Assembly: GCF_014636865.1 (NCBI RefSeq) | Contig: NZ_BMER01000001.1 | Coordinates: 2,344,718-2,408,717 of the forward strand | Origin: Parapedobacter pyrenivorans | GTDB lineage: Bacteria; Bacteroidota; Bacteroidia; Sphingobacteriales; Sphingobacteriaceae | Direction: 5' to 3' | DNA length: 64,000 bases | In this document: piece by piece, positions 38,005-64,000 of the stretch | How positions within the stretch are numbered: position 1 is the first letter of the stretch | Layout of the letters: each line of letters opens with the position of its first letter | Program-made: the position numbers and the translations under genes | The notes under the pieces: model-generated | The model's database searches: none | Told to the model about the DNA's origin: nothing | What the model saw: the letters and a program-made list of their open reading frames with translations, nothing else

Positions 38005-41582
<3,578 letters not shown>

Positions 41583-41835
41583 AATGCATAATTGTTGTTT
41601 TTTTCTTTCCCTGCTGAAAGAAGAAATTGGTTTTTAATACTTCCTACCCTCCCCTCGGGTAGATCGCCTCACATCGCAAGTACTAAGTTATGGAATGAAA
41701 ATCCGATATCCAAGGGAATGATAAGATTGTACAATAAGAAGGCAATAAATTCAAATAATGTCCCTTCCTTTCCGCACAACTTTGTACCGTACGGATATGT
41801 GCGTTCGGCAACGAACTTTTATAAATCAATAAGCC
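41583..41835. other. Divergent control region between the AraC regulator and the isomerase gene
   Basis: Inverted repeat CTACCC-N7-GGGTAG at 41644-41662, a -7 like CAACTTTG at 41777-41784 facing right, palindrome CCGTACGG at 41787-41794 and inverted repeat GTTCG-N4-CGAAC at 41803-41816 in the leader. No gene is seen. A regulatory role for the palindromes is inference. Confidence 0.45.
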
Positions 41836-45127: not shown

Positions 45128-45165
45128 CGGCAAAAATAGTAGAGCAGGTTATCGGTGTAAGCCGC

Positions 45166-45173
45166 TATCTTTG
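45166..45173 (+). promoter_or_regulatory. Promoter -7 box for the symporter gene
   Basis: TATCTTTG, exact TAnnTTTG, 32 bases before the symporter ATG; lacks a clear -33 TTTG at 19-21 bp. It may give the transporter independent expression. Confidence 0.45.
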
Positions 45174-45204
45174 TTCCCATAGATCAGTAACCAAAAAGAC
45201 CTTG

Positions 45205-49477: not shown

Positions 49478-51121
49478 ATGAAAAGAATCGTAAGTATTTT
49501 AGTTTGTGTCGTGTTGATGGGCGTGATAGGTGCCGTTGCGAAAGCCGCGGTGCCAAGGCCCAAGATCGTCGTGTGTTTGGTGGTGGATCAAATGCGATGG
49601 GACTACCTGTATCGCTTCCACGACCGCTATCGTGACGGTGGGTTTAAACGACTGTTGGGCGATGGTTTCAGTTGCGATCAAACCCTGATCAGCTACGCGC
49701 CTACCATAACTGGATGTGGGCATGCATCCATATTTACCGGTGCTACGCCAGCCGTCCATGGCATCGTCGGTAACGATTGGCCAGATTTTGAAAAAGGCTA
49801 TTCCGTCAATTGCGTTGGCGATGAAAACGTGTCCTCCGTAGGCTCGGAATCAAAATATGGCAAGGCCTCTCCTCGTAATCTATTGACGACCACGGTCGGC
49901 GATGAACTGAAGATCGCCACCAATTTCCGAAGTAAAGTTGTCGGTATCTCCATCAAAGACCGGGCAGCGATCCTGCCGGCAGGCCATACCGCTGATGCGG
50001 CATTCTGGTTTGACAAGACCAATAATTGTTTTGTTACCAGTACCTATTACATGAATGAGTTACCCGGGTGGGTACAGTCCTTTAACAGCCGGGGGCTTCC
50101 GAAAGAATACCTGAGTCAGGGTTGGCATACGTTATACCCGATTGATTCATACACGCAAAGTACACCGGATGACATGCCGTATGAATCCAGGTTTGCGAAC
50201 GAAAAGCGCCCGGTATTTCCGCATAACCTGGTTGACACGGTAACGGGTTTTGATGTAGGTATCAGTAATACGCCGTTCGGAAACAGTCTACTGCTTGCAT
50301 TTGCCAAGGAAACCATTGATGCGTATCAACTCGGCGGAGGAGAGGACACCGATTTGTTGACCGTTAGTCTATCGTCTCCCGATGCCATCGGTCACCGATT
50401 CGGTCCCAATTCGATTGAAATAGAAGATAATTACCTTCGTCTGGATCGGGATCTGGAAGACTTTTTTACCCACCTGGACCTAACATTCGGAAAGGGCAAC
50501 TACCTGTTTTTTATAACCGCCGATCACGGTGCATCGCAATCGCCGGGATACCTGGCCGCGAATAAACTCCCCTTTGGTTTTCTCAATGAGAAATACCTGC
50601 TCGATTCCATTCAAACCGTAATCCGATCGGAATACGGGCTCGATTCGGCGATACTTGCGAATGCGAATCAGCAGCTTTACCTAAACGACAAAGCGATTTC
50701 CAAGTTAACGGTTTCCAAGGAGGAAATCGCCGACCGCATTGCCGTGTTATTGATGGAAAGTCCGGGCATTACCGAAGCGTTTGTAACGAGCAAACTCGGC
50801 AGCGCCACCTTGGCGGAGCCGATAAAAACCATGATGATCAATGGCTATCATACCAAGCGGGGTGGAGATATCGTATACAGCGTGCGGTCCGGCTGGAAAT
50901 GGGGTTCGATATCCGGCGCATCCCATAGCCATTGGAATGCGTACGACGCACATATTCCGTTGATTTGGATGGGGTGGGGGGTACAGCCCGGCAAGACGAA
51001 CCGGCTTGTTTACAATACAGACATTGCTTCTACGCTCGCTGCGTTGCTCCATATCCAGATGCCCAGCGGGAATGTCGGCAGCGTAATTTATGAGCTGACG
51101 GACCAAAATAAACAAGAATAG
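49478..51121 (+). CDS. pafA: PafA-type alkaline phosphatase
   Basis: Periplasmic phosphomonoesterase of the alkaline phosphatase superfamily, 547 residues. Seen: signal peptide (about 1-25), D37 (VVDQMRWD), nucleophile T78 (APTITGCGH), N99 (VGNDW), and the PafA-specific pair K160 and R162 (SIKDRAAILPAGH), then D302/H306 (PDAIGHRFG), D349/H350 (TADHGAS) and H483 (GASHSHWN). These positions follow the Elizabethkingia PafA set with a one- to three-residue shift. Such enzymes release phosphate from organic esters. It probably shares an operon with the metallophosphatase before it. Confidence 0.92.
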   Translation: MKRIVSILVCVVLMGVIGAVAKAAVPRPKIVVCLVVDQMRWDYLYRFHDRYRDGGFKRLLGDGFSCDQTLISYAPTITGCGHASIFTGATPAVHGIVGNDWPDFEKGYSVNCVGDENVSSVGSESKYGKASPRNLLTTTVGDELKIATNFRSKVVGISIKDRAAILPAGHTADAAFWFDKTNNCFVTSTYYMNELPGWVQSFNSRGLPKEYLSQGWHTLYPIDSYTQSTPDDMPYESRFANEKRPVFPHNLVDTVTGFDVGISNTPFGNSLLLAFAKETIDAYQLGGGEDTDLLTVSLSSPDAIGHRFGPNSIEIEDNYLRLDRDLEDFFTHLDLTFGKGNYLFFITADHGASQSPGYLAANKLPFGFLNEKYLLDSIQTVIRSEYGLDSAILANANQQLYLNDKAISKLTVSKEEIADRIAVLLMESPGITEAFVTSKLGSATLAEPIKTMMINGYHTKRGGDIVYSVRSGWKWGSISGASHSHWNAYDAHIPLIWMGWGVQPGKTNRLVYNTDIASTLAALLHIQMPSGNVGSVIYELTDQNKQE

Positions 51122-51153: not shown

Positions 51154-51629
51154 ACGAAGAAAATCGATACGAAGCTTTTAGGAACAATTGCCGGAGATGT
51201 CCTTCGGAATACCACCATACTCGAAAAATTTAAAATCATCTACCTATGCACCTTCGGGGGCATCCTTGTAATGCTGGGCCTCATATGGGGTTTGAACTTT
51301 CCCATTAACAAACATATGTGGTCCAGCTCCTTTATTTTATTGACGGGCGGCATGGCTTTTCTGATACTGGCTTCGTTTTATGGGATTATTGATATACTTC
51401 GTTACCGGAGGTGGTGCTTCTTCTTTGAGGTCATTGGCACCAACTCGATCGTCGTATATATGGCCTATCATCTCATCGATTTCAATTATACCTCCAAGTT
51501 GTTGTTTGAAGGGATATATATGAATTTTAATGAGAAATGGCATCCTGTTTTAACGCATTAGGGTCTTTAGCGCTGGTTTGGCTACTACTCTATTTTCTAT
51601 ATCGGAACCGGATTTTCGTAAAAGTATAG
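51154..51629 (+). pseudogene. DUF5009-type membrane acyltransferase, truncated and frameshifted remnant
   Basis: The last about 155 codons of a DUF5009/heparan N-acetyltransferase-like gene. Seen: KLLGTIAGDVLRNTTILEKF, GLIWGLNFPINKHMWSSSF, YGIIDILRYRRWCFFFEVIGTNSIVVYMAYHLIDF in one frame, then, after a probable one-base loss in the T run at 51548-51551, ALGSLALVWLLLYFLYRNRIFVKV and a stop at 51627-51629. It aligns with the C-terminus of the intact gene at 58513 (IYGMNSILAYILFSIVDF and FFDRNRVYLKV). The first about 220 codons are missing. If the shift were a sequencing error the gene would still be truncated. Confidence 0.82.
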
Positions 51630-51757: not shown

Positions 51758-54700
51758 ATGATGACTTTTAAAAAAGCGACCCATGCGCGAAGCGGAGTCC
51801 TGCCGGGTGCCAGACTTTCGTTTGCCTGTATTTTCCTGTTGATTTTCTTGACCGCCAATGCTACTAAGCGAAGTGTTCATGAGCGCCCAACGTACGGAGA
51901 GGTTCCGGTACAGGAATATCGGGTGAGAGGTAGCGTACACAACGCTAAATCCGAACCGTTGGAAGGTGTTTCGATCAAAGTAAAAGACAGTAATGCCTCC
52001 ACGAGCAGTAATAGCAACGGAGAATTCGAACTGAACGTTTCCGCACGACCTGCCACATTGATCATATCTTACGTGGGATACGAGGTGCACGAGGTACTAT
52101 ACACAGGGCAGGACTTCCTGGCGATCGTGTTGACGGAAGCGAACCAGAACCTGGATGAGGTTGTAGTTACGGCTCTAGGCATTAAGAAAGAAGCAAAGTC
52201 ATTGGCCTATGCAGTGACTAAGGTAGCGGGAGATGAGTTTGAAAAGAACAGAAATGTAAACTTTGCCAACTCATTAAGTGGTCGGGTGGCCGGTGTTAAC
52301 GTAGTGAGCACCGGGAATGGCCCTGGGGGCTCAAGTCGGGTAACGATCCGGGGGAATACCTCCATTTCCGGCGATAATCAGCCGTTGTATATTATCAATG
52401 GCATGCCCATGGATAATTCGCAGTTTGGTAGTACGAATACCGTGTCTCCGGATTGGGGTGACAATATGTCGAGTATTAATGCGGACGATATCGAAGAGAT
52501 ATCGGTACTGAAAGGAGCAACCGCCGCCGCGTTATATGGCTCCCGGGCAAAGAACGGGGCGATCATCATTGTGACCAAGTCCGGGAAAGACCAACAAGGG
52601 ATCGGAATCAGTGTGAACTCCAATACGACCTTTGAAGTGCCCTTTTTTTTATGGGAAATCCAGGATGAGTATGGTCAGGGTTACGGCGGTTTCCGTCCGG
52701 CAAGCATGCAAGATGCGGCCAACCACGGCCAAAATCACTGGGGTGAAAAATACGATGGGAAAATGACCATACAACTGGATGGCGTGGAAAGACCCTATTC
52801 CTTTGTGAAAGACAGGGTGCTTGAAGACTTCTATCAGGTGGGGAGCACCACAAACAATAATGTTTCTTTCAGTAAGGGACATGAAAACGGTTCTTTTCGG
52901 CTCTCGTACACGAATTTAAGGAACAATGCAATTGTCGATAATTCAGGACTTCAACGGAACAACCTCAGTTTGGGGTTGCAACAAAATCTGACGAAAAAGG
53001 TCTCCATCGGTGCCAATATCGACTATGTTAAAGAAAAAGCGAACAACCGCCTGATTACGTCGGGTGGACGTGCGAGTATGACGAGTACCATCCTTTGGGT
53101 AAATAGCAATATGCCTACCGAAGCGCTATCACCGGGGTTTGATGAACACTTTCAGGAAAAAGCGCTGGGAACCGACCTGAATGCAACAAATCCCTATTTT
53201 GTGTTGAACCGGATGAAGAATAACTCCGATAAGGATCGGTACTTAACGACCGCCAACATACGCTGGGAAATATGGGATTGGCTGTATGTGCAGGGTCGGG
53301 TTGGGCAGGATTACTATGGCGTGACCAATACAAATCTTATTCCCGATGGAACGGGTTTTCTTAAAAACGGGGAAATACAGCAACGAAATATCTCGTTTTG
53401 GGAACGCAACTTCGAAGGAATTATCGGGATCGATAAGAAATGGAGTGATTATTCGCTGACCGTGAACGCCGGTGGGAACCTCATGTCGCAGAAAAGAAGT
53501 ACCACGGATGTGGATGCATTTGGCTTCGTTGTCCCGCAGTTGCACGTGATCAATAATACGTCCGATCGTCAGACAATCACGGGCCTCTATCGAAAGAAGA
53601 TCAATTCGCTGTTTGCTACCACCGAATTCGGGTACAGAGATTTTCTTTACCTGAATCTTACCGGGAGAAACGACTGGTTTTCAACCTTGAATCCGAAATC
53701 GAACAACTATTTTTATCCATCGGCAGGCGTCAGCTTTGTATTCTCCGAGGCGCTGAGAATGCCTTCTCAACTAAATTTTGGTAAATTAAGGGTGGCTTAT
53801 GCCTCCGTGGGCGGAGACACCGATCCGTACCTACTGAACCTGACCTATGGACTGCAGTCATACTCCTACGACGGCAAATCACTGGGAAAAATCAATCAGG
53901 AGAATGTGCCCAATGAAAACCTGCGGCCGCTGAGTGTGGCGGAGTTTGAAGTGGGATTGGACGTGAAAATGTTCAATAGCCGACTGGGCTTGGATGTGGC
54001 ATGGTACCACAAACGGACAACAAACGATATTGCCATCGAGACGATCTCTTCGACAAGTGGATATCAGGGGATGTCGGTGAATGTCGGCGAAATAGAAAAT
54101 AAAGGTTGGGAGCTTTTACTTACGGGCAAACCGCTGAACAAAGGAAATCTCAGATGGGATGTCGCAGCAAATTTTGCGTATAATAAAAGCAAGGTGTTGA
54201 AAATATCCAATGCTTCAAAGGAGTTGGTGCTGGAATCGGTAACCCGGGGCTGGATTAAGCATATTGAAGGAATGGAATATTCGCAGATTGTGGGGAGATC
54301 GGTACTGAAGGACGAAGATGGTAAAGATATCATTGATGCGACGGGGCTGCCTATTGTACCCGTGGATGTCGTGCCTTTTGGTTCGGGTATCCATAAATAT
54401 ACCGTGGGGCTTACCAATACGTTCAGTTATAAATCGTTTGCGCTTTCTTTCCTGATCGATTCAAAGTTTGATGCTAAAATATATTCCGGACTGAATTACG
54501 ATCTCGATCACCGGGGAATGTCTTGGGGATCGCTTTTGGGAAGGGCCGATGGCGCTACGTTGGATGGCGTTACCGAGGATGGTCAGGTGAATACGGTGCA
54601 TGTATCTGCCGATCGGGTAAACAACCGGGCGATTGTTGTCAGGCGAAGAGATGCGTTGGATGATTACTTGTACGATGCAAGTTTCATCAAGCTACGCAAT

Positions 54701-54922
54701 TTTGCGTTGACCTACAACCTGCCCCAACGCCTCTGTGATAAAATCGGATACCTCAAGGGGGCAAGCCTTTCGTTTGTCGGTAACAACGCACTCATCCTCC
54801 TGAAGCATACGCCGGGTATGGACCCCGAAACGAATTTCAGTGCAGGAAACGCACAGGGTTATGCAAATTCCGCACTGCCCCCAACCCGCAGTTTTGGTTT
54901 CAATTTAGCTGTTAAGTTTTAA
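51758..54922 (+). CDS. SusC/RagA-type TonB-linked outer membrane transporter
   Basis: Outer-membrane TonB-dependent channel that imports oligomers with its SusD partner, 1054 residues. Seen: signal region, an N-terminal carboxypeptidase-regulatory-like domain (about 50-135) with VRGSVHNAKSEPLEGVSIKVKDSNAST, the TonB-box-like LDEVVVTALG, a plug with SLSGRVAGVNVVSTGNGPGGSSRVTIRGNTSI and DIEEISVLKGATAAALYGSRAKNGAIIIVTKSG, and a beta-barrel ending in PPTRSFGFNLAVKF. Substrate is inferred from its operon. It is followed by susD after 11 bases. Confidence 0.94.
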   Translation: MMTFKKATHARSGVLPGARLSFACIFLLIFLTANATKRSVHERPTYGEVPVQEYRVRGSVHNAKSEPLEGVSIKVKDSNASTSSNSNGEFELNVSARPATLIISYVGYEVHEVLYTGQDFLAIVLTEANQNLDEVVVTALGIKKEAKSLAYAVTKVAGDEFEKNRNVNFANSLSGRVAGVNVVSTGNGPGGSSRVTIRGNTSISGDNQPLYIINGMPMDNSQFGSTNTVSPDWGDNMSSINADDIEEISVLKGATAAALYGSRAKNGAIIIVTKSGKDQQGIGISVNSNTTFEVPFFLWEIQDEYGQGYGGFRPASMQDAANHGQNHWGEKYDGKMTIQLDGVERPYSFVKDRVLEDFYQVGSTTNNNVSFSKGHENGSFRLSYTNLRNNAIVDNSGLQRNNLSLGLQQNLTKKVSIGANIDYVKEKANNRLITSGGRASMTSTILWVNSNMPTEALSPGFDEHFQEKALGTDLNATNPYFVLNRMKNNSDKDRYLTTANIRWEIWDWLYVQGRVGQDYYGVTNTNLIPDGTGFLKNGEIQQRNISFWERNFEGIIGIDKKWSDYSLTVNAGGNLMSQKRSTTDVDAFGFVVPQLHVINNTSDRQTITGLYRKKINSLFATTEFGYRDFLYLNLTGRNDWFSTLNPKSNNYFYPSAGVSFVFSEALRMPSQLNFGKLRVAYASVGGDTDPYLLNLTYGLQSYSYDGKSLGKINQENVPNENLRPLSVAEFEVGLDVKMFNSRLGLDVAWYHKRTTNDIAIETISSTSGYQGMSVNVGEIENKGWELLLTGKPLNKGNLRWDVAANFAYNKSKVLKISNASKELVLESVTRGWIKHIEGMEYSQIVGRSVLKDEDGKDIIDATGLPIVPVDVVPFGSGIHKYTVGLTNTFSYKSFALSFLIDSKFDAKIYSGLNYDLDHRGMSWGSLLGRADGATLDGVTEDGQVNTVHVSADRVNNRAIVVRRRDALDDYLYDASFIKLRNFALTYNLPQRLCDKIGYLKGASLSFVGNNALILLKHTPGMDPETNFSAGNAQGYANSALPPTRSFGFNLAVKF

Positions 54923-54933
54923 ATTAAGTGATC

Positions 54934-56505
54934 ATGAGAACATATAAAGCAGGTATCGCGACCTTATTTTTTATCACTTTATTGGCAGCCTGTGATAAAG
55001 GATTTGAAAAGTTGAATCAGGATCCGAATGCAGTAACGAGCGACCGGTTTGATCCCGCTTACCTATTAGCATCGGCACAACTTCAGACGGCGAAGTATGA
55101 AGGCGAAGTGACCGGCAGTCTCTATTATGGTGAAGGCTTTGTTCAGCATTTTGCCTCGTTGAGTAATGTGGGGATATTTAATTTCCATGGGGATAAATAT
55201 GTGTTTCACAAAGGCAATAATGAGGCCCTGTGGTTTGCGTCGTATGAAATCGTCAAGTTACTACAGGATATCATACAGCATACGCAGGAGGTAGCTGAAT
55301 ATAATAACCTTTTGCAAATGAGCAGAATATGGAGGGCAGTTGTTTTCCATCGCCTCACGGACATGTATGGGGATGTTCCCTACTCGGAAGCGGGGCTCGC
55401 TCTTTACCAGCATATTTATAAACCCAAATACGACTCTCAAAAAGCAATATATGAAGACATGCTGGTTGAACTGGATGATGCCGCGGCTAAACTGAATCCA
55501 GACATGCCGCTGTATCCCTCAGCAGATATCGTGTATAACGGCGATATCCAAAAATGGAAAAAGCTCAGTTACGCAATGATGCTGCGGTTAGGGATGCGGC
55601 TGTCGAAAGTGGAACCGGAAAACGCCAAGACCTGGGTACAGAAGGCTTTTGATGGCGGTGTGTTTGAATCAAACGACGACAACTTGTTTATCAAGGGTAC
55701 AGACCCCGATGGCACCATCGAAGCACTCAGCAACGCCGATAGCTGGATATTGAGCGTATCTTCCCGCGAAGCGGGAAAAATCAGCAAAACCTTCTTCGAT
55801 TTTCTGAAAAGCCATGACGACCCGAGACTGAAACACACGGTAGCGGTCTACACAAATCCAACAGACGTAAGAACAAAGAATACAGATCCCGCTATTCAGA
55901 AGGGGCTTCCAAATGGATTGGATCGGAACACGCTGATGGCTGATCCAAGCTACGACCCGAATGCGCCCGGGCAGGAGCATCAATATTCTGGCATTAATAG
56001 GGATGTATATGGAAAGCTGGATGGTCCACGGATGTTTATCACGCATGGGGAAGTCGCATTATTGCTGGCAGAGGCGTCCGCCAGAGGTTGGATAACCGGA
56101 AATCCAGCGCAATATTATGAGACTGGTGTACGATCTGCCATGAAAAACCTCAGCATATATGATCCGTCGGCATTTATTTCTGACACCGAAATCAATGCGT
56201 ATCTAGCACAAAATCCGTTTGTAGGAACGCAGGACCTACAAGCTGCGTTGGAGCAGATCAATACCCAATACTGGGCAGCAACATTTCTGAATGGATACGA
56301 AGCGTTTGCGAATGTAAGAAGGTCGGGTTATCCAAAATTAATTCCGGTGAATTATCCCGACAATGAAACAGGTGGATTATTTCCAAGAAGGCTGAGGTAT
56401 CCGGAAAATGAAGCGGTACTGAACACCGATCATTATAAGGAGGCAGTTGCCAGACAGGGCGCAGACAATTACATCACACGGCTTTGGTGGGATAAGGAAG
56501 ACTGA
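54934..56505 (+). CDS. SusD/RagB-type nutrient-binding lipoprotein
   Basis: Surface lipoprotein that caps the SusC channel, 523 residues. Seen: lipobox TLLAACDKGF (Cys about 20), FEKLNQDPNAVTSDRFDPAYLLASAQLQ, an alpha-helical TPR-rich body, WRAVVFHRLTDMYGDVPYSEA and LNGYEAFANVRRSGYPKLIPV. It resembles the SusD_2 subgroup. ATG at 54934 preferred over GTG at 54928. The stop overlaps the next start (TGATG), so translation is coupled. Confidence 0.92.
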   Translation: MRTYKAGIATLFFITLLAACDKGFEKLNQDPNAVTSDRFDPAYLLASAQLQTAKYEGEVTGSLYYGEGFVQHFASLSNVGIFNFHGDKYVFHKGNNEALWFASYEIVKLLQDIIQHTQEVAEYNNLLQMSRIWRAVVFHRLTDMYGDVPYSEAGLALYQHIYKPKYDSQKAIYEDMLVELDDAAAKLNPDMPLYPSADIVYNGDIQKWKKLSYAMMLRLGMRLSKVEPENAKTWVQKAFDGGVFESNDDNLFIKGTDPDGTIEALSNADSWILSVSSREAGKISKTFFDFLKSHDDPRLKHTVAVYTNPTDVRTKNTDPAIQKGLPNGLDRNTLMADPSYDPNAPGQEHQYSGINRDVYGKLDGPRMFITHGEVALLLAEASARGWITGNPAQYYETGVRSAMKNLSIYDPSAFISDTEINAYLAQNPFVGTQDLQAALEQINTQYWAATFLNGYEAFANVRRSGYPKLIPVNYPDNETGGLFPRRLRYPENEAVLNTDHYKEAVARQGADNYITRLWWDKED

Positions 56506-57554
56506 TGGAAGGTAAACTTATTAACGATACCTGTTCGAGACGGGCTTTCATAAAAGGTTCATTCACTTTGGGCATGACGGGGCTGATCGGCGTGAATACC
56601 GATTTGTTGCCGATACCCCGTACCGTTGAACCCGTGCTGATTCCGGTGATGCTTACACCCTTCCATAAGGACCTCTCCGTAGATACGTATTGCTTGGAAA
56701 AGTTAATCGAATTTTACAAGCAATCAGGTGCAGGAGGATTCTTTGCAAATTGCCTGAGCAGTGAGATGTATCAATTGAACCGGAATGAACAATTGAATAT
56801 CGCCGCGATAACCGCGAAACGTGCGGGAAATGATATTCCGGTGGTTGCTACAGGTTCTTTCGGTGAAAAATTGGAAGATAGAATCGAATGTACAAAGCAA
56901 ATGGCCGAAACCGGGGTAGATGCCGTCGTGTTGATTACCAGCCACTTTGCGGAGAAAGAACAAGATGCCCGGATTTTTCTTGACCACGTGCTCGCCCTGG
57001 TGGATCGGACACCGGGCATTCCATTGGGTACTTACGAATGTCCAACTCCGTACAAGCGGCTTCTTTCCACGTGGGCGTTCCGGACGCTTAATGAAACCCG
57101 GCGGTTCACTTACCACAAAGATACATCGGAAGATATCGAGCAGCTTACTCAAAAAATTGAGATAAGCAGGGGCGGCTCATACAACGTATTTAATGCACAT
57201 TCGGGAACGGCAGTATCGTTTATTCAAAGGGGCGGAAGCGGCTTGTCCCCGATAGCAGGCAATTTTTTTCCCGAGATATTTTCCTGGATATGTGAGCATG
57301 CCAATAAGCCTGACCAGTCTGCGCAGCTCGAATACATGCAACAGGAATTGATACGTGCGGAGAAAATCGTATCCTTAAAGTACCCGTTGAGCGCAAAGTA
57401 CTTTCTTCGAAAACGCGGGCTGCCTATCCAGCTAAATAGTAGGGTGCCACGGGAGGAACTGACTAAAACCGAAGTAGCAGCTTTGGATGGGTTGTATGGT
57501 GAATTCGAAGTGTGGTGCAACGATCTGGGGATATCCCCTGCAAGATTGATATAA
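56505..57554 (+). CDS. Exported dihydrodipicolinate synthase/N-acetylneuraminate lyase-family protein with Tat signal
   Basis: Class I aldolase-like TIM barrel, 349 residues. Seen: a twin-arginine signal (SRRAFIKGSFTLGMTGLIG, about 9-28), then VLIPVMLTPFHKDLSVD, GAGGFFANCLSSEMYQLNRNE (usually GTTGE in DHDPS, here NCLSSE), VVATGSF, GVDAVVLITSHF, PLGTYECPTPYKR with the catalytic Tyr, and FTYHKDTSED, where the Lys should form the Schiff base. Canonical DapA and NanA are cytoplasmic, so export is unusual and suggests a lyase or aldolase for sugar acids in the periplasm. Coupled to susD. Confidence 0.82.
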   Translation: MEGKLINDTCSRRAFIKGSFTLGMTGLIGVNTDLLPIPRTVEPVLIPVMLTPFHKDLSVDTYCLEKLIEFYKQSGAGGFFANCLSSEMYQLNRNEQLNIAAITAKRAGNDIPVVATGSFGEKLEDRIECTKQMAETGVDAVVLITSHFAEKEQDARIFLDHVLALVDRTPGIPLGTYECPTPYKRLLSTWAFRTLNETRRFTYHKDTSEDIEQLTQKIEISRGGSYNVFNAHSGTAVSFIQRGGSGLSPIAGNFFPEIFSWICEHANKPDQSAQLEYMQQELIRAEKIVSLKYPLSAKYFLRKRGLPIQLNSRVPREELTKTEVAALDGLYGEFEVWCNDLGISPARLI

Positions 57555-57567
57555 AAGTAATCGAGAC

Positions 57568-58503
57568 ATGTCGAACGTTAATTTGAATTGGTTTGGTCTG
57601 ATGATGGTGTTGTGTGTTTTTGCCAATTGTGGAAATCAGCAAGCTGGCGATGTAGAACAACGGTTTCCAAAGGAGATGGTGGCGTTTGCTCCTTATTCAG
57701 ATCGTTCATTGTTTTCCGGGACGGATTCTTCCACGTGGGATAAGCATATCCGGGAACGCGGATTTATCCTATACGATGATGGACTATACAAAATATGGTA
57801 TACGGGTTATAATCCTGATCGTTCTGCGCTTAAATTCCTGGGGTATGCCACCTCCGATGATGGAATACGCTGGGAGCGCTATTCAGAAAACCCCATATAT
57901 AGTGAAAGATGGACAGAGGATGTGTTTGTGCTGAAGGATCAGGGCCTATATTACCTATTTGCTGAAGGAAAGGACGATGTTGCCCATTTACTTACCTCAA
58001 CAGATGGAATTCAATGGGAATCGCGAGGAGATTTAACAATCCAATCAGTAGCGGGAGACACCATACCTGCTCCTTATGGAACACCCACGGTGTTTATCAA
58101 GGATGGTACATGGCACTTGTTTTATGAACGGGTAGATGCTGCTATTTGGGTAGCTACTTCGGTCGATAAACTGCACTGGCGTAACATCCAAGACGAACCG
58201 GTATTGATACCGGGACCGGAGGATTACGACAAAGGAGCAGTTGCCGCGAATCAAATCATTGAATTTGACGGAAAGTATTACCTGTATTACCACGCCACGT
58301 CAAATCCGGATTGGAATAAGGGAGGAAGCCCCGTCCATTGGAATTCCAATGTAGCCATGTCCGAAGATCTAATAAAGTGGAAAAAATATCCAAATAACCC
58401 ACTGGTCGAAAACAACGAGTCCAGCCCGGTTACGGTGTGGGATGGGCGGCGGCCCAAGTTGTATACGATGCACAAAAATATGCATCTTTATCTTCCTAAA
58501 TAA
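57568..58503 (+). CDS. Five-bladed beta-propeller glycosidase-like lipoprotein (GH43/GH32/GH117-like fold)
   Basis: Predicted exported glycan-active enzyme, 311 residues. Seen: a lipobox-like VFANCGN (Cys about 21), then repeated blade motifs: LYDDGLYKIWYTGYNPDRSALKFLGYATSDDGIRWERYSENPIY, VFVLKDQGLYYLFAEGKD, TVFIKDGTWHLFYERVD and IIEFDGKYYLYYHATSN, each with the W.Y/F..Y core of GH43/GH32/GH117 propellers. The catalytic acids cannot be assigned by eye. Probably acts on the imported or surface-bound sugar of this SusCD operon. Confidence 0.7.
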   Translation: MSNVNLNWFGLMMVLCVFANCGNQQAGDVEQRFPKEMVAFAPYSDRSLFSGTDSSTWDKHIRERGFILYDDGLYKIWYTGYNPDRSALKFLGYATSDDGIRWERYSENPIYSERWTEDVFVLKDQGLYYLFAEGKDDVAHLLTSTDGIQWESRGDLTIQSVAGDTIPAPYGTPTVFIKDGTWHLFYERVDAAIWVATSVDKLHWRNIQDEPVLIPGPEDYDKGAVAANQIIEFDGKYYLYYHATSNPDWNKGGSPVHWNSNVAMSEDLIKWKKYPNNPLVENNESSPVTVWDGRRPKLYTMHKNMHLYLPK

Positions 58504-58512
58504 ACTTAATGT

Positions 58513-59646
58513 ATGATGAATCGAGTGAGCAACCGTTTGGAATCATTGGATATCCTTCGAGGATTTGACTTGTTCTGTTTGGTCTTTTTTCAACCTGTAC
58601 TAGCTTCGTTGGCAAGGGAATTAGATAATGACACGCTGAATACACTGATGGTGCAGTTCAGGCATGTGCATTGGGAAGGGTTCGTTTTCTGGGATCTGAT
58701 TATGCCGTTATTTATGTTTATGGCAGGGGTTTCTATGCCGTTCGCGTTTCGTAAATACCTTAAGGACGATAGCAGGAAGAGCCTTTATAAACGAATCTTC
58801 AAACGTGTCTTGCTCCTGTGGATTTTCGGAATGATCTGCCAGGGGAACTTATTGGCATTGGATTTCAGTCGAATCTTTTTTTATTCGAATACGTTGCAAG
58901 CGATTGCGATGGGGTATCTCATTTCGGCGATCTTACTGATCCATTTGGATATCCGCGGACAACTTATTGTTACCGCGGTGTTGCTGCTCGGTTATTGGGG
59001 AATCCTGACATTCGTGGGAGTTGATGGCTATGGAAAAGGAGATTTTACACCCGATAGAAATTTTGCGGAATATATAGACAGGATCATTTTAGGACGGTTC
59101 AGAGATGGGGTCAACGTTACCGAAGGAGGATTGGATTTTGGGAATTACCGGTATACTTGGCTATTAAGTAGCCTTAATTTTGGAGTCACCGTGATGACCG
59201 GAGTTTTTGCGGGCCATATTCTAGGAAGCAGTAAAATCACAAAAGTTAACAAAGCCGTATGGCTGTTGAGTTTTGGGATTTTACAAATTGCAGTTGGATT
59301 GTTGTGGGGAATGCAGATGCCCATTATTAAGAAAATATGGACGAGCTCCATGACATTGTACAGCAGTGGTATTTGTTTTATCTTGATGGCTTTATTTTAC
59401 TATGTCGTCGACTATTGCGGTAAAGGAAAATACTTCGCCTGGCTCAAAATCTATGGGATGAATTCAATCCTGGCTTATATCCTGTTTTCAATTGTTGATT
59501 TTAGTTCCCTTATCCATTCGCTATTTTTTGGCCTTGAACAGTTTCTGGGAAATGGCTATCAACCATTTGTTAAACTATGTAGTGTCAGTCTAATCTTCGC
59601 TGTATTGTATTTTTTTGATAGAAACAGGGTGTACCTCAAAGTATGA
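58513..59646 (+). CDS. DUF5009-type integral membrane protein (heparan-alpha-glucosaminide N-acetyltransferase-like)
   Basis: Predicted acyl-transfer membrane protein, 377 residues. Seen: NRLESLDILRGFDLFCLVFF near the start, then about nine or ten hydrophobic segments, FVFWDLIMPLFMFMAGVSMPFAFRKYLK, IYGMNSILAYILFSIVDF and the ending FDRNRVYLKV. Family knowledge: COG4299/DUF5009 proteins carry acetyl groups across the membrane to glycans in some relatives; the role in PULs is unproven. A decayed copy lies at 51154-51629. Confidence 0.82.
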   Translation: MMNRVSNRLESLDILRGFDLFCLVFFQPVLASLARELDNDTLNTLMVQFRHVHWEGFVFWDLIMPLFMFMAGVSMPFAFRKYLKDDSRKSLYKRIFKRVLLLWIFGMICQGNLLALDFSRIFFYSNTLQAIAMGYLISAILLIHLDIRGQLIVTAVLLLGYWGILTFVGVDGYGKGDFTPDRNFAEYIDRIILGRFRDGVNVTEGGLDFGNYRYTWLLSSLNFGVTVMTGVFAGHILGSSKITKVNKAVWLLSFGILQIAVGLLWGMQMPIIKKIWTSSMTLYSSGICFILMALFYYVVDYCGKGKYFAWLKIYGMNSILAYILFSIVDFSSLIHSLFFGLEQFLGNGYQPFVKLCSVSLIFAVLYFFDRNRVYLKV

Positions 59647-59654
59647 CTTGCAAA

Positions 59655-59674
59655 TATCCTACAACAACAGGATA
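59655..59674. promoter_or_regulatory. Hairpin before the GMC gene
   Basis: Inverted repeat TATCCT (59655-59660) and AGGATA (59669-59674), 8-nt loop, without a T tract. It could attenuate or protect the transcript; not a standard terminator. Confidence 0.4.
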
Positions 59675-59755
59675 AAATGGAGTAAAGTTCCACTTCTTAA
59701 AATATAGAACTTCGAGCTGTCAGAAGCTAACTGATTAATAAACCATAAAATAGGA

Positions 59756-61495
59756 ATGGCATTTAACATCAATGGAGCTAAGGAAAAATACGATGTCATC
59801 ATTGTTGGGTCTGGTGCAGGCGGAGGTATGTCCGGCTATGTACTGGCACATGCGGGCTTAAAGGTATTGATGCTGGAATCCGGCCCTTTTTTCGATCCGG
59901 CTAAAGATTCGCTGCAACTGCGGTGGCCCTGGGAGTCGCCTCGCAGAGGTGCATCGACAAACCGAGCCTTTGGCGATTTTGACGGTGCTTTCGGAGGATG
60001 GGAAATCGAAGGGGAGCCTTATACCAATACCGAAGACAGTGAATTCAGGTGGTTCAGATCACGGATGTTGGGAGGGCGCACCAATCACTGGGGCCGTATT
60101 TCGCTGCGTTTTGGTCCGAAGGATTTTAAAGGGGGGAGCTTTGACGGGGCGACCGACGACTGGCCCATAACGTATGACGAAGTAAAGCCTTACTATGACA
60201 AGGTAGATGTATTGCTGGGTGTGTATGGCACGAATGAAGGATTGGAAAATGATCCCGATGGTATTTTTCTAAAACCGCCCAAACCGAGACTACACGAATT
60301 GATGCTTACTGAAGAGGCGAAGAAGAAAGGTATTCCGGTTATTGCCGGGAGATGCTCCGTGCTTACCCAACCGCTTAAGAATAATAGTCAGCGGGGGATA
60401 TGCTTCAATTGCGGCCAGTGCGGTAGATCCTGTAAGGCTTACGCAGATTTTTCTTCATCTTCTGCTTTGGTCATCCCTGCCATTAGGACCGGTAACCTGG
60501 AAGTGCTTCCAAACTCGTTGGTGCGCGAAGTGCTGGTCGATGGGGGTGGGCTCGCCAAGGGGGTTTCCTATATCAATAAGGAAGACATGCAGGAGTACCA
60601 GGTTTATGGCGAGCAGGTGATTCTTGCTGCCAGCGCCTGTGAGTCGGCCCGTATCCTGTTGAATTCAAAGTCTAGACAGCATCCGCAGGGACTGGCCAAC
60701 AGCAGCGGGGTGGTCGGCAAATACCTTCATGATTCTACGGGCGTTAGCGTGTCGGCATATCTTCCGCAACTGAAAGACCGCAAGCGGTATAACGAAGATG
60801 GCGTCGGCGCATTGCATATTTATTCGCCGTGGTGGCTTGATAATTCGAAGCTGGACTTCCCAAGAGGATATCACATCGAATACGGTGGTGGAATGAACAT
60901 GCCCTCCTATGGTTACCTCAGCGATTTACCCCGCTTCAACGGTGCGTTGGCTAAAGTCGATGGTACTGTAAAGAAAAGCGGGGGTTACGGTCGGTCACTA
61001 AAAGAAGAATACCGCAGTTACTTCGGGACAAAGGTCGTCTTGGCCGGCCGGGGGCTGGCAATGGCCAGAAAAGACAATTACTGCGAAATTGACCCTAATA
61101 CCGTCGATAGATACGGTATTCCGGTGTTGAAATTCCATTATAAGTGGCATGATGCTGAGATCAAGCAGGGGAAGCACATGCAAGATACCTTCCACGATCT
61201 TTTTACCGATATGGGGGCTGTAATTACTTCCGAATATGTGGGTATCGAGCGGAATTACGGGCTTAAGAAACCGGGCGAAATCATCCATGAGGTGGGTACA
61301 GTGAGGATGGGAGATGATCCAAAAACGTCGGCCCTGAATAAATGGTGCCAGGCGCATGACTGCAGGAATCTCTTTGTAGTTGACGGTGCGCCGTTTGTAC
61401 AACAGGGCGATAAAAACCCGACGTGGACGATATTGGCGTTGTCTATGCGGACGTCAGAATATATTTTGGAACAACGGAAAAAGCATAATCTGTAA
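59756..61495 (+). CDS. GMC-family flavoprotein dehydrogenase
   Basis: FAD-dependent glucose-methanol-choline oxidoreductase, 579 residues. Seen: FAD-binding DVIIVGSGAGGGMSGYVLAHAGLKVLMLESGP, NHWGRISLRFGPKDF, a Cys motif GICFNCGQCGRSCKAYADF (CxxCxxCxxxC), HEVGTVRMGDDPKTSALNKW with a catalytic-type His, and KNPTWTILALSMRTSEYI. Family members of this type oxidise sugars, including glycoside C3-OH, and pair with a small gluconate-2-dehydrogenase-subunit-3-like protein, which follows here. No own signal peptide; it could be carried by the Tat-signal partner. Confidence 0.85.
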   Translation: MAFNINGAKEKYDVIIVGSGAGGGMSGYVLAHAGLKVLMLESGPFFDPAKDSLQLRWPWESPRRGASTNRAFGDFDGAFGGWEIEGEPYTNTEDSEFRWFRSRMLGGRTNHWGRISLRFGPKDFKGGSFDGATDDWPITYDEVKPYYDKVDVLLGVYGTNEGLENDPDGIFLKPPKPRLHELMLTEEAKKKGIPVIAGRCSVLTQPLKNNSQRGICFNCGQCGRSCKAYADFSSSSALVIPAIRTGNLEVLPNSLVREVLVDGGGLAKGVSYINKEDMQEYQVYGEQVILAASACESARILLNSKSRQHPQGLANSSGVVGKYLHDSTGVSVSAYLPQLKDRKRYNEDGVGALHIYSPWWLDNSKLDFPRGYHIEYGGGMNMPSYGYLSDLPRFNGALAKVDGTVKKSGGYGRSLKEEYRSYFGTKVVLAGRGLAMARKDNYCEIDPNTVDRYGIPVLKFHYKWHDAEIKQGKHMQDTFHDLFTDMGAVITSEYVGIERNYGLKKPGEIIHEVGTVRMGDDPKTSALNKWCQAHDCRNLFVVDGAPFVQQGDKNPTWTILALSMRTSEYILEQRKKHNL

Positions 61496-61496
61496 G

Positions 61497-62135
61497 ATGT
61501 ACAAAATGAAACGAAGAGATGCCCTCAAAGCTATCGGCGTATCCGTAATGGCAAGTGGGCTGCTTTTTCATCGATGCAGCAGTGAAAAGGCGAACCGTGT
61601 GGTTTCTAGGATTAACCTAGATCTGAAAGATGGCAGAGAACTTTGGGAACGGGAGCGGTTTGAGGAGTTGAATTCCTATACGTTTTTTGATCAGCATGAA
61701 AAAGAGACGCTTGTCGAACTGGTCGATCTGATCTTGCCCGCGGATGAGCACTCCCTGAGTGCATCCGAGGTGGAGGTTCCGGATTTTATCGAGTTTATCG
61801 TAAAAGATCAACCGGAATTGCAGCAACCGATGCGGGAAGGGCTGAAATGGATCGATGACTACGCGAAACAGCAGTTCCAGGCTATTTTCGTAGGGATAAC
61901 GATAGGCCAAAAAACACATATCTTGGACCGAATTGCCTATCCTGAACAGGAACGCAGCGAATTGCAGCTGGGTATTTCATTTTTTACACTGCTCAGGGAG
62001 CTAACGGCCTCCGGATACTTTACTTCGAAAGCCGGCATCGACTATCTGGGATATGTGGGTAACCGGCCGAATGTTTGGGAGGGGGTTCCGACGGAGATCC
62101 TTCGGCAATTTCAACTGACGCATTTAATTACGTAA
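61497..62135 (+). CDS. Gluconate 2-dehydrogenase subunit 3-like small subunit with Tat signal
   Basis: Small partner of membrane or periplasmic GMC dehydrogenases, 212 residues. Seen: a Tat-like signal MKRRDALKAIGVSVMASGLLFHRC (start ATG at 61497, or 61506), then FFDQHEKETLVELVDLILPADEHSLSASEVEVPDFIEFIV and GIDYLGYVGNRPNVWEGVP, features of subunit 3. It lies two bases after the GMC stop, so co-translation and co-export are likely. A Cys after the signal may anchor it as a lipoprotein. Confidence 0.82.
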   Translation: MYKMKRRDALKAIGVSVMASGLLFHRCSSEKANRVVSRINLDLKDGRELWERERFEELNSYTFFDQHEKETLVELVDLILPADEHSLSASEVEVPDFIEFIVKDQPELQQPMREGLKWIDDYAKQQFQAIFVGITIGQKTHILDRIAYPEQERSELQLGISFFTLLRELTASGYFTSKAGIDYLGYVGNRPNVWEGVPTEILRQFQLTHLIT

Positions 62136-62153
62136 ACCAAAGAATCCAAAAAT

Positions 62154-63602
62154 ATGAAGCAAGACAGTAAAAAACAGTCCAGAAGGGACTTCATCAGTAC
62201 CGCCAGCCTCGCAGTTGCAGGTGTGACCATCGTGCCCCGCCATGTATTGGGTGGTAGGGGATTTATTGCGCCCAGTGATAAGCTGGTAGTCGCCGGCATT
62301 GGAGTAGGGGGCAAGGGAAGAAGCGATCTGAAGAACTTTTACGACAGCGGCAAAGCGGAAATTGCCTATCTGTGCGATGTGGATGACCGAATGGCGAAAG
62401 AATCCCGGGAACGATTCCCCAAAGCGAAGTATTACCACGATTGGAGGGAATTAATGGACAAGGAATCCAAGCATTTTGATGCAGTGTCGGTGTCCACTCC
62501 TGACCATAACCACGCTGTTATTGCTATGGGCGCCATGCAGCTCGGGAAGCACGTATATGTACAGAAACCCATGACCCACGACATCTATGAGGCCCGGAAA
62601 TTGACGGAAGCGGCAGGGAAGTACAAGGTGGTTACCCAAATGGGTAATCAAGGAGCCTCGGGGGATGGAGTCAGGCAGCTCCGGGAGTGGTTTGACGCTG
62701 GCATAATCGGCGATGTGCATACAGTCTATACGTGGACGAATCGTCCCGTATGGCCCCAGGGCATTCCTTGGCCTGCGCAATCGCCCGCTGTTCCCAAAGA
62801 ACTGGACTGGGATCTTTGGTTAGGGACAGCTCCCTACAAATCATATGTTGACGGACTCATACCGGGCAGCTGGCGGGGATGGTGGGATTACGGTACTGGT
62901 GCACTCGGCGATCTGGGCTGCCATCTACTGGAAGCGCCTTTTTCTGTGCTGGATCTGAAGTATCCCACTGACGTGCAGGCGACCGTTGGTAGCGTTTATA
63001 CCGCATTCGGAGAGCGAGGCTATTTTGAGGACAGCTGCCCGCCGTCGGGCTATGCCATATTGACCTTTCCCAAAACCAGTAAAACGCAAGGAGAGATAAA
63101 GTTGCATTGGATGGATGGCGGGATCAAGCCAATGAGGCCGGATGAATTGGAAGCAGACGAAATCATGGGCGACGGCAACAGCGGCATCCTGTTTATCGGT
63201 ACGAAAGGAAAAATGATGGCCAGTGAATACGCTGCCAATCCGAGGCTGATCCCAGTCTCGAAGACGAAGGAAGTAACCGTTCCGAAGCGGTATGAGCGGG
63301 TGAAAGACGGTGCCGATGGGCACTACGCGCAGTGGGTAGAAGGTGCTATTGCAGGCTATGGCAACGCCAAGCTGAGTGCGCCTTTCGAATTGGCAGGTCC
63401 ATTGACGGAAACCGTATTGATGGCCAACTTGGCGATCCGGGTGGCTGACATTCCCCAGCCGCGGCCCAACGGTAAGGGTTTTATTTATCCTGGAAGCAAT
63501 AAGTTGATGAAATGGGATAGCGCGAACATGCGGATTACCAATTATGAAGATGCAAATCAGTTTGTGAAGCGCGAATACAGAAAGGGTTGGGGACCATTAT
63601 AA
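62154..63602 (+). CDS. Gfo/Idh/MocA-family oxidoreductase with Tat signal
   Basis: NAD(P)-dependent sugar oxidoreductase family, 482 residues. Seen: a twin-arginine signal (QSRRDFISTASLAVAGVTIVP), Rossmann motif VVAGIGVGGKGRSDLKNF, YLCDVDDRMAKESRERFP, QKPMTHDIYEARKLTEAA (the conserved Lys-Pro), TQMGNQGASGDGVRQLREW and the C-terminal alpha/beta domain with WWDYGTGALGDLGCHLLEAPFSVLDLKYP. Family members act on sugars at various positions with a tightly bound cofactor, including glycoside 3-oxidation and NAD-dependent hydrolysis. Export before folding fits a cofactor-loaded periplasmic enzyme. Confidence 0.88.
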   Translation: MKQDSKKQSRRDFISTASLAVAGVTIVPRHVLGGRGFIAPSDKLVVAGIGVGGKGRSDLKNFYDSGKAEIAYLCDVDDRMAKESRERFPKAKYYHDWRELMDKESKHFDAVSVSTPDHNHAVIAMGAMQLGKHVYVQKPMTHDIYEARKLTEAAGKYKVVTQMGNQGASGDGVRQLREWFDAGIIGDVHTVYTWTNRPVWPQGIPWPAQSPAVPKELDWDLWLGTAPYKSYVDGLIPGSWRGWWDYGTGALGDLGCHLLEAPFSVLDLKYPTDVQATVGSVYTAFGERGYFEDSCPPSGYAILTFPKTSKTQGEIKLHWMDGGIKPMRPDELEADEIMGDGNSGILFIGTKGKMMASEYAANPRLIPVSKTKEVTVPKRYERVKDGADGHYAQWVEGAIAGYGNAKLSAPFELAGPLTETVLMANLAIRVADIPQPRPNGKGFIYPGSNKLMKWDSANMRITNYEDANQFVKREYRKGWGPL

Positions 63603-63611
63603 AATAAACAG

Positions 63612-64000
63612 ATGAAATCGAGTATACTAAGTTATGCGATCGCCTGCTGCCTGACCCTGTGGTTTACCGGTGCGGCAGCACAAACGGGCCGTTGGGTATC
63701 GCTGTTTGACGGAAAGACATTGAACGGATGGAAGGCCAGCGAAAATGAATCGTCCTTCCGTGTGGAAGATGGCTGCATCGTGCAGGAAGGACCACGGTCC
63801 CATTTGTTTTATGTGGGCAATGTAAGCGGTCATGTATTCAAGAATTTTGAATTCAAGGCTAAAGTATATACATTCGAGAACGCCAACTCCGGTTTGTACT
63901 TTCATACCCGGTTCCAGGAAACGGGATTCCCTAATTACGGATATGAAGTACAGGTCAACAACTCCCATCGAGATGCTATCCGTACGGGTAGCCTTTACAA
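63612..64000 (+). CDS. DUF1080 (3-keto-disaccharide hydrolase-like) protein, 5' part
   Basis: Secreted jelly-roll protein; at least 129 residues, cut by the window end. Seen: signal peptide MKSSILSYAIACCLTLWFTGAAAQ, then WVSLFDGKTLNGWKASENESSFRVEDGCIVQEG, the DUF1080 signature, and FKAKVYTFENANSGLYFHTRFQETGFPNYGYEVQVNNSH. Family knowledge: DUF1080 proteins include 3-keto-glycoside hydrolases. It follows the Gfo/Idh/MocA gene by nine bases and completes a plausible 3-keto sugar pathway. Confidence 0.85.
   Translation, partial: MKSSILSYAIACCLTLWFTGAAAQTGRWVSLFDGKTLNGWKASENESSFRVEDGCIVQEGPRSHLFYVGNVSGHVFKNFEFKAKVYTFENANSGLYFHTRFQETGFPNYGYEVQVNNSHRDAIRTGSLY

Follow-up and report, generated by a model that had tools for sequence, protein, structure and literature searches.

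A SusCD-headed gene run in Parapedobacter pyrenivorans with an exported DHDPS-family protein, a 3-keto-glycoside gene set and a HUMPS block

Gene content of the run

A 64,000-nucleotide stretch of the 5.9 Mb Parapedobacter pyrenivorans genome (contig C1, NZ_BMER01000001.1, positions 2344718-2408717; the window) ends in nine plus-strand genes that run from position 51758 to its edge (Table 1), all of them listed in an initial annotation made from the sequence alone. The run opens with an adjoining SusC/SusD pair separated by 5 nt, the defining feature of a polysaccharide utilisation locus, and continues with an exported class I protein of the dihydrodipicolinate synthase (DHDPS) family, hereafter the exported DapA (DapAx). 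A lipoprotein and a membrane protein follow, then a GMC dehydrogenase with its subunit 3, an exported Gfo/Idh/MocA dehydrogenase (Gfo) and the 5' part of a DUF1080 gene. Export was assigned from motifs read by eye together with a pattern. The inter-gene gaps are 5, -1, 13, 9, 109, 1, 18 and 9 nt; most genes are thus as tightly spaced or overlapping as had been claimed, and only the gap between the NagX-like and GMC genes is wide.

The family labels of the initial annotation stood for all genes but two. The lipoprotein called GH43-like is of the five-bladed-propeller type and has the GH32 N-terminal domain as its best model, whereas its GH43 score of 27.0 bits lies under the cut-off of 32.2. 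The membrane protein called DUF5009 gave no Pfam match at 1e-3, and its best NCBIfam model, the NagX transmembrane N-acetyltransferase, scored 201 bits where 480 are required, so we regard DUF5009 as a loose label; the NagX-like paralogue that closes the run reached 24.9 bits with DUF5009 against a cut-off of 25.

When we read past position 64000, as the initial annotation had proposed (stretch L010, in which position + 63282 gives the window position), the run continued on the same strand. The end of the DUF1080 gene is followed by a HUMPS/OMPdecase protein, a zinc alcohol dehydrogenase (MDR), an SDR, a TIM-barrel isomerase-like protein (TIM), a PfkB kinase and an MBL-fold protein, with gaps of 11, -22, 21, 3, 16 and 1 nt, and then, after 119 nt, by a second DHDPS-family protein, which lacks a signal and represents the cytosolic form (DapAc). 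For the analysis below we divide these genes into block A (SusC, SusD and the exported DapA), block B (GMC, subunit 3, Gfo and DUF1080) and block C (HUMPS, zinc dehydrogenase, SDR and TIM, here with PfkB and MBL).

Table 1. Genes of the nine-gene run and of the region upstream of it, in window coordinates.
Feature	Position	Strand	Evidence
SusC (block A)	51758..54922	+	TIGR04056 631 bits, cut-off 368
SusD (block A)	54928..56505	+	PF12771 259 bits
Exported DHDPS-family class I aldolase/dehydratase, DapAx (block A)	56505..57554	+	PF00701 91 bits; twin-arginine SRRAFIK; Tyr177 and Lys205
GH32/GH43-like lipoprotein	57568..58503	+	PF00251 (GH32 N-terminal) 43.8 bits, cut-off 22.1
NagX-like membrane protein (DUF5009 in the initial annotation)	58513..59646	+	NF046061 201 bits, under cut-off 480
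GMC dehydrogenase (block B)	59756..61495	+	PF05199 72 bits, PF00732 41 bits
Gluconate 2-dehydrogenase subunit 3-like, twin-arginine start (block B)	61497..62135	+	PF13618 (Gluconate_2-dh3) 104 bits
Exported Gfo/Idh/MocA dehydrogenase, BT2158-like, SRRDF start (block B)	62154..63602	+	NF058561 477 bits, cut-off 750
DUF1080 / 3-keto-disaccharide hydrolase family, 5' part	63612..64000 (ends at window-equivalent 64259)	+	PF06439 126 bits full length, cut-off 26.8
AraC-type regulator	40692..41582	-	HTH_18 69 bits; similar protein near symporter/cytosolic DapA pair in many relatives
Fucose-isomerase-like protein	41836..43467	+	Fucose_iso_C 36.9 bits, cut-off 29.3
Ribulokinase	43343..45127	+	TIGR01234 605 bits, cut-off 583
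Sodium:solute symporter	45202..46755	+	nearest solved structure sialic acid symporter SiaT (5nv9), 265 bits
Purple-acid-phosphatase-like exported protein	48164..49462	+	PF16656, PF00149
PafA-type alkaline phosphatase	49478..51121	+	NF042991 701 bits, cut-off 650
NagX-family gene remnant, C-terminal part only, frame broken	51172..51626	+	tblastn 75% and 89% to G005 copy

An exported class I protein beside SusC and SusD

Tyr177 and Lys205 of the exported DapA align with the YNVP tyrosine and the VKD lysine of DHDPS, which form the catalytic pair of that enzyme. Both residues, and most of the YECPxPYKR and YHKDTSED motifs around them, are invariant in 13/13 exported forms aligned. The AlphaFold model (mean predicted local distance difference test score, pLDDT, 85.9; residues 1-39 of low confidence) resembles human 4-hydroxy-2-oxoglutarate aldolase (Z 34.2) and DHDPS (Z 33.9), tied with many others, and the fold together with the Schiff-base lysine and the tyrosine places the protein in class I of the DHDPS superfamily. 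It falls short of the models for DapA proper (TIGR00674 81.8 bits, cut-off 206), for N-acetylneuraminate lyase (31 bits against the nanA cut-off of 382) and for 5-dehydro-4-deoxyglucarate dehydratase (KdgD; TIGR03249 45.8 bits, cut-off 374). In the phmmer alignment Pro182 of the exported DapA takes the place of the DHDPS arginine of YNVPxR. Because Lys205 and Tyr177 are kept while the arginine is replaced and no equivalog model is reached, we describe it as an active-looking class I enzyme and leave its specificity unassigned.

With the exported DapA as sole query, a pattern-seeded scan across the genome collection returned 13 loci, 12 with twin-arginine exported forms and one (L070, 21%, no signal) with a distant, ordinary-looking DapA. 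In 10/12 of the exported loci (seven Larkinella, two Dyadobacter and one Rhabdobacter), SusC (62-65%) and SusD (65-69%) lie divergently beside the enzyme gene; the two Cyclobacterium loci have no adjoining SusC/SusD. Seven of the 12 genomes were examined further, six with the adjacent pair and one Cyclobacterium, and each holds one SusD at 66-70%, all its other matches being at 44% or below. Two further architectures are co-directional: in the window the exported DapA overlaps SusD by 1 nt, and in G272 and G671 another SusCD (24-32% to that of the window) precedes it at a distance of 33 or 114 nt. Behind the G671 copy (L084 12562-17434) we also noted a zinc dehydrogenase and, recognised by eye, a protein of 403 aa resembling phosphodiesterases and another resembling aldehyde dehydrogenases.

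Altogether, SusC/SusD is the immediate neighbour of 14/17 exported forms and of 1/43 cytosolic forms (0/29 + 1/14), a comparison of related rows from chosen loci rather than a random sample, to which we attach no probability. The counts leave out L070 and L071, a copy of the window gene, and nine last-added loci moved the cytosolic count from 0/34 to 1/43. L102 was counted as cytosolic, its twin-arginine pattern lying in a probably over-long frame whose start resembles L103 and L086. In a phylum sample of 395 genomes, our own counted, the window-type SusD occurs in 5/395 at E 1e-120, and no DapA was recognised beside it in the sample genomes read (G272, G289 and G408); the exported-DapA profile occurs in 9/395 at E 1e-60, and in the frames read the protein was exported only in the window and in G272.

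Shared signals might group exported forms in a tree that includes the signal-peptide columns, and we therefore rebuilt the tree on the barrel alone (51 rows, midpoint root, the nine forms read last standing outside it). Fourteen exported forms, including that of the window, make one clade (98/94), whose sister is a cytosolic pair from G260 and G376 near BNR2-like proteins and, in G260, beside a symporter. The sister of a second exported group (G272, G671 and G582; 99/97) consists of cytosolic enzymes of G272 and G671. On this topology at least two changes of export state are forced, and two gains of export are the simplest reading. The long branch of the window pair, together with the absence of any equivalog model reached, would fit an exported DapA that has lost catalysis and serves SusCD as a periplasmic binding or sensing protein; we consider this very unlikely in view of the invariance of Tyr177, Lys205 and most of the surrounding motifs in all 13 exported forms aligned.

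The initial annotation had called the combination of genes a candidate undescribed pathway. A literature search by titles and abstract starts, with many subscription papers beyond reach, gave no description of a SusD paired with an exported DHDPS-family protein, and the literature on BT2157/BT2158 and on GMC 3-dehydrogenases in Bacteroidetes, covered to the same limited extent, gave no SusCD-exported aldolase pairing. Within these limits the pair of SusCD and exported class I aldolase was not found described; the 3-keto chemistry is of a known kind.

Blocks B and C and their occurrence apart

The set of GMC, subunit 3, Gfo and DUF1080 is, as proposed, of the kind linked to 3-keto-glycosides. 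Gfo matches PDB entries 8tdf and 8tdh (E 4e-97 and 3e-94), and its best NCBIfam model is the BT_2158 glycoside 3-dehydrogenase equivalog (NF058561), of which it reaches 477 of the required 750 bits. The DUF1080 protein matches 8tda weakly (E 8e-07), and its PF06439 score places it in the 3-keto-disaccharide hydrolase family. The study behind 8tda-8tdi reportedly concerns a Bacteroides 3-keto-glycoside system of the BT2157/BT2158 type. The GMC catalytic subunit and the gluconate_2-dh3 subunit together form the core of a LacABC-type dehydrogenase, in which we take LacA to be the GMC protein, LacC the gluconate_2-dh3 subunit and LacB a cytochrome with CXXCH; no CXXCH motif of a LacB-type c-type cytochrome was present among the 29 proteins of the run and its neighbours, the rest of the genome not having been searched. 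Since the nearest solved relatives of the GMC protein are a glucose dehydrogenase (6a2u, 133 bits) and a fructose dehydrogenase (121 bits), we infer rather than assign its oxidation at C3. Across the whole genome there are 25 DUF1080 matches, eight of which form four pairs, each within one open frame.

The 3-keto core is not itself undescribed, as one study (PMC9007349) already reports such chemistry: Caulobacter has a lactose 3-dehydrogenase with a DUF1080 protein as the proposed 3'-ketolactose hydrolase. According to the same study, the Pedobacter dehydrogenase has phenotypes while ten DUF1080 genes gave none on lactose, BT2157 is named a 3-ketotrehalose hydrolase, NagX is proposed to be a glucosamine acetyltransferase, and the fate of 3-ketogalactose after cleavage of 3'-ketolactose is stated to be unknown (PMC9007349).

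The HUMPS protein of block C keeps the DLKTMDGG motif of the OMPdecase/HUMPS family and scores 149 bits with 9lj9 and 42-49 bits with structures of 3-keto-L-gulonate 6-phosphate decarboxylase (KGPDC), but reaches the model cut-offs of neither KGPDC nor 3-hexulose-6-phosphate synthase (HPS). In three genomes HUMPS-MDR-SDR-TIM stands directly behind GMC-Gfo-DUF1080. The literature covered, to the limited extent given above, had no description of 3-keto sugars passing through HUMPS in the cytosol, a possible route here. An inositol route of the Thermotoga type was also considered for this block and kept as a lead only, its IolM-, IolO- and IolC-like best matches all lying well under cut-off and TIM having just three weak PDB matches.

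The distribution of the blocks was followed in samples of relatives (120 genomes, our own included; thresholds differ between queries). Gfo occurs in 49/120, GMC in 36/120 and HUMPS in 6/120, and in family f50 SusD was found in 1/199 (E 1e-150), DapA in 8/199 and Gfo in 50/199, again with thresholds differing by query. The gene order proposed for follow-up in other genomes recurs in G005, of the same genus, which holds the nine window genes in order (identities: SusC 92%, SusD 90%, exported DapA 77%, GMC 92%, Gfo 96%), then HUMPS (97%), and no BNR-to-NagX tail in the stretch read. That 77% protein is the only orthologue of the exported DapA among the relatives; 24/120 genomes, our own included, have any DapA match, the others at 36-43%, and 23/23 matches outside our genome and G005 lack a twin-arginine start. 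G006, likewise of the same genus, has the order PafA, GMC (92%), subunit 3 (79%), Gfo (96%), DUF1080 (85%), HUMPS (96%), MDR, SDR, TIM and DapAc, with no SusC, SusD, exported DapA, GH-like protein, NagX1, PfkB or MBL between PafA and DapAc. In G008 a stretch of 19 kb carries HUMPS-MDR-SDR-TIM-DapAc but lacks GMC, Gfo, DUF1080, PfkB and MBL. The best SusD match in G006 and G008 is 30-33%.

The same separation is seen from the side of block A. In a tblastn comparison of 29 proteins, from the run and from the genes upstream of it, with the 12 exported-DapA loci (each about 21 kb), there was no match to GMC, subunit 3, NagX or the GH-like protein; one Gfo (29%) and one DUF1080 (47%) lie 6-9 kb off, and there are three SDRs. 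These results bear on the initial annotation's proposal of one pathway, in which a glycoside is imported, oxidised at C3 in the periplasm and cleaved by DUF1080, with the exported DapA then splitting the product. The SusCD head, the exported DHDPS protein with its Schiff-base lysine and the 3-keto set bear out parts of that proposal; a place of the exported DapA in the 3-keto pathway is not supported, the run being a composite of blocks that occur apart. Nine genes in one short-gapped run in our genome and in G005, and relatives of Gfo (73-76%) near cytosolic DapA in G026, G272 and G671, speak for a single pathway. Against it, 10 of the 12 Cytophagales loci have the exported DapA next to SusCD but no GMC, subunit 3 or NagX, and G006 carries the 3-keto block without SusCD or exported DapA. 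Moreover, enzymes of the DHDPS superfamily usually act on 2-oxo acids, which a 3-keto hexose is not. We therefore judge one pathway unlikely.

Cytosolic DapA, its symporter and the flanking genes

Outside G005 there are 23 DapA matches of the cytosolic type. A symporter lies in the same 19-kb stretch in 16/18 of the first set, and within two genes in 5/5 of the remaining loci. In G671 the cytosolic enzyme is accompanied by a galactarate/altronate (GD_AH) dehydratase (PF20629, 312 bits), an FAA-hydrolase-type protein, the symporter, an aldehyde dehydrogenase matched best, though under cut-off, by the 2,5-dioxovalerate dehydrogenase model, Gfo (76%) and DUF1080 (51%); the same neighbourhood in G272 has genes resembling these in length and N-terminus. 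This suggests sugar acids as the common theme of the cytosolic DapA neighbourhoods. Near the symporter and cytosolic DapA of Larkinella terrae (L090 13196-16026) there are a BNR_2 protein of sialidase-like type and, judged by eye, a GH28-like protein.

We considered sialic acid as the substrate of this DapA/symporter pair, with the SiaT-like symporter and the sialidase-like BNR_2 gene 5 kb from the pair in L090 as pointers; the low nanA scores and the G671 galactarate/altronate dehydratase, which points to aldarates or aldonates, led us to set it aside provisionally. We also considered a Kdo-type route, in which a 3-deoxy-ulosonic acid would be split to pyruvate and D-arabinose, the latter converted to D-ribulose and phosphorylated, by way of the cytosolic DapA, symporter, fucose-isomerase-like protein and ribulokinase, while the exported DapA would perform the same cleavage in the periplasm. 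A fucose-isomerase-like gene in 9/18 cytosolic DapA loci, a ribulokinase above cut-off, and the BNR_2 sialidase-like propellers of the run would suit this route, as would a symporter nearest to SiaT in which the Ser60, Thr63 and Arg135 positions are kept; in SiaT these residues bind the sialic acid carboxylate (PMC5931594). The Thr58 and Gln82 positions are not kept, the G671 dehydratase and aldehyde dehydrogenase fit aldarates or aldonates better, nanA (TIGR00683) and PRK04147 score at most 31 and 37 bits against cut-offs of 382 and 281, and sialidase residues are not demonstrated in the BNR_2 proteins. On balance the Kdo-type route appears quite unlikely.

The upstream plus-strand genes (fucose-isomerase-like, ribulokinase, symporter and two phosphatases) are interrupted by one minus-strand gene. 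The fucose-isomerase-like protein gave no PDB match at E 1, and the listed ribulokinase start, which overlaps the preceding gene, is probably too far upstream. Because similar regulators and symporters stand near cytosolic DapA in many relatives, the genes from 40692 to 46755 (AraC, fucose-isomerase-like, ribulokinase and symporter) may share one regulon with the run. The promoter consensus TTTG-N18-22-TAnnTTTG has 4 exact matches in the window against 1.3 expected, none of them within 51758-64000, and none in L010; sigma-70 and terminator scans stayed at chance level. The NagX-family remnant sits between PafA and SusC, where G005 has a full-length copy.

Behind the cytosolic DapA lie two BNR-type proteins (the first under its cut-off), PhoPQ_related, GDPD and purple-acid-phosphatase-like proteins and a further BNR protein; a protein of 750 aa, matched by no Pfam or NCBIfam model at 1e-3, and the NagX-like paralogue close the run. 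The genes of this tail from the first BNR gene to that for the 750-aa protein (L010 7218-18614) may point to a phosphate-bearing glycan. Most of them are also present in the G008 stretch and part of them in G004.

Proposed routes and comparison with known systems

The sequences show to which families the proteins belong, that the Tyr/Lys pair is conserved, that the run has a block structure and that an exported DapA frequently neighbours SusCD, and with a probability of roughly 0.55 we propose that the run is a carbohydrate-utilisation locus assembled from the separable blocks A, B and C and a sugar-acid route of cytosolic DapA and symporter. Its reactions, substrates and compartments, and the flow between the blocks, we infer as follows. 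With block A, a substrate would cross the outer membrane and a 2-oxo sugar acid would be cleaved or dehydrated in the periplasm by the Schiff-base enzyme; the GH32/43-like lipoprotein and the NagX-like protein come after this block here. Block B would oxidise a glycoside at C3, after which the glycosidic bond would be opened, a role suggested by the proposals for lactose 3-dehydrogenase/DUF1080 and BT2157/BT2158. Block C would be cytosolic, and our best guess is that a 3-keto sugar is turned into a 3-keto-aldonate 6-phosphate, which is decarboxylated to a pentulose 5-phosphate and epimerised; a 3-keto-aldonate 6-phosphate contains a beta-keto acid of the kind that KGPDC-type enzymes decarboxylate. 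Block C would thereby supply a destination for the 3-keto sugar of block B, while the second, cytosolic DapA and the SiaT-like symporter would import and break down sugar acids.

Several observations weigh against this composite locus of separable blocks. In our genome and in G005 the blocks sit in one run, which would allow one pathway in these two species, and the neighbourhoods in G026, G272 and G671, where the Gfo relatives (73-76%) lie near cytosolic DapA, speak for a genuine connection of some kind between oxidation of the Gfo type and enzymes of the DapA type. The association of SusCD and export is incomplete: the exported forms L061, L062 and L079 (3/17) have no SusCD neighbour, the cytosolic form of G043 (L107), the sole exception among its kind, has a SusC 107 nt away, and in G272 (SusD 60%, L076) and Cyclobacterium G696 (SusD 66-67%, L093) the window-type SusCD has no adjoining enzyme, the exported DapA being on another contig. 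Nor is block C a fixed unit, as the G006 and G008 stretches lack PfkB and MBL, and HUMPS in G014 and G038 has none of the other run genes with it. In the G008 stretch block C is not accompanied by block B, and in G107 GMC and Gfo stand together with no DUF1080 or HUMPS recognised in that stretch. Finally, no member scanned reached a DHDPS-superfamily equivalog cut-off, so that these enzymes may be lyases or dehydratases, and the long branch of the window's exported DapA may reflect a changed function.

SusCD systems are usually viewed as importers ahead of enzymes that cut glycosidic bonds. Beyond the composite locus, we tentatively suggest, as a possibility with the odds against it, that a SusCD importer has here as its periplasmic partner a Tat-exported class I aldolase/dehydratase in place of a glycoside hydrolase, that this enzyme acts outside the cytosol on an imported 2-oxo-3-deoxy sugar acid, by breaking a C-C bond or by dehydration, that the arrangement arose, most simply, twice in Bacteroidota, and that in this run it is joined to a 3-keto block whose 3-keto half goes to a cytosolic HUMPS-type decarboxylase. 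The 3-keto block itself is already known; what deserves following is the pairing of SusCD with an exported aldolase, together with the HUMPS genes that stand behind the 3-keto genes. If the suggestion is true, the recurrent pairing would mean that some Bacteroidota start sugar-acid catabolism in the periplasm. HUMPS-MDR-SDR-TIM behind GMC-Gfo-DUF1080 is a concrete candidate route for the fate of 3-ketogalactose that PMC9007349 leaves unknown.

Among known systems, LacABC with DUF1080, as described in PMC9007349, resembles the run in that a DUF1080 gene lies near that of a dehydrogenase and in periplasmic oxidation; in contrast, the run has no CXXCH protein among the 29 examined and is joined to SusCD, an exported DapA and a HUMPS block. 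Gfo and DUF1080 match structures of the Bacteroides BT2157/BT2158 system (8tdf/8tdh and, weakly, 8tda), but Gfo remains under the equivalog cut-off (477 vs 750) and the accompanying genes differ. The HUMPS protein shares its family and the DLKTMDGG motif with KGPDC and HPS, yet falls under both cut-offs and sits behind 3-keto-glycoside genes in three genomes. The exported DapA has the fold, Schiff-base lysine and tyrosine of the DHDPS superfamily (DapA, NanA, KDG aldolase and 5-keto-4-deoxyglucarate dehydratase); it differs in reaching no equivalog cut-off, in the replaced DHDPS arginine, in its twin-arginine signal and in its frequent SusCD neighbour.

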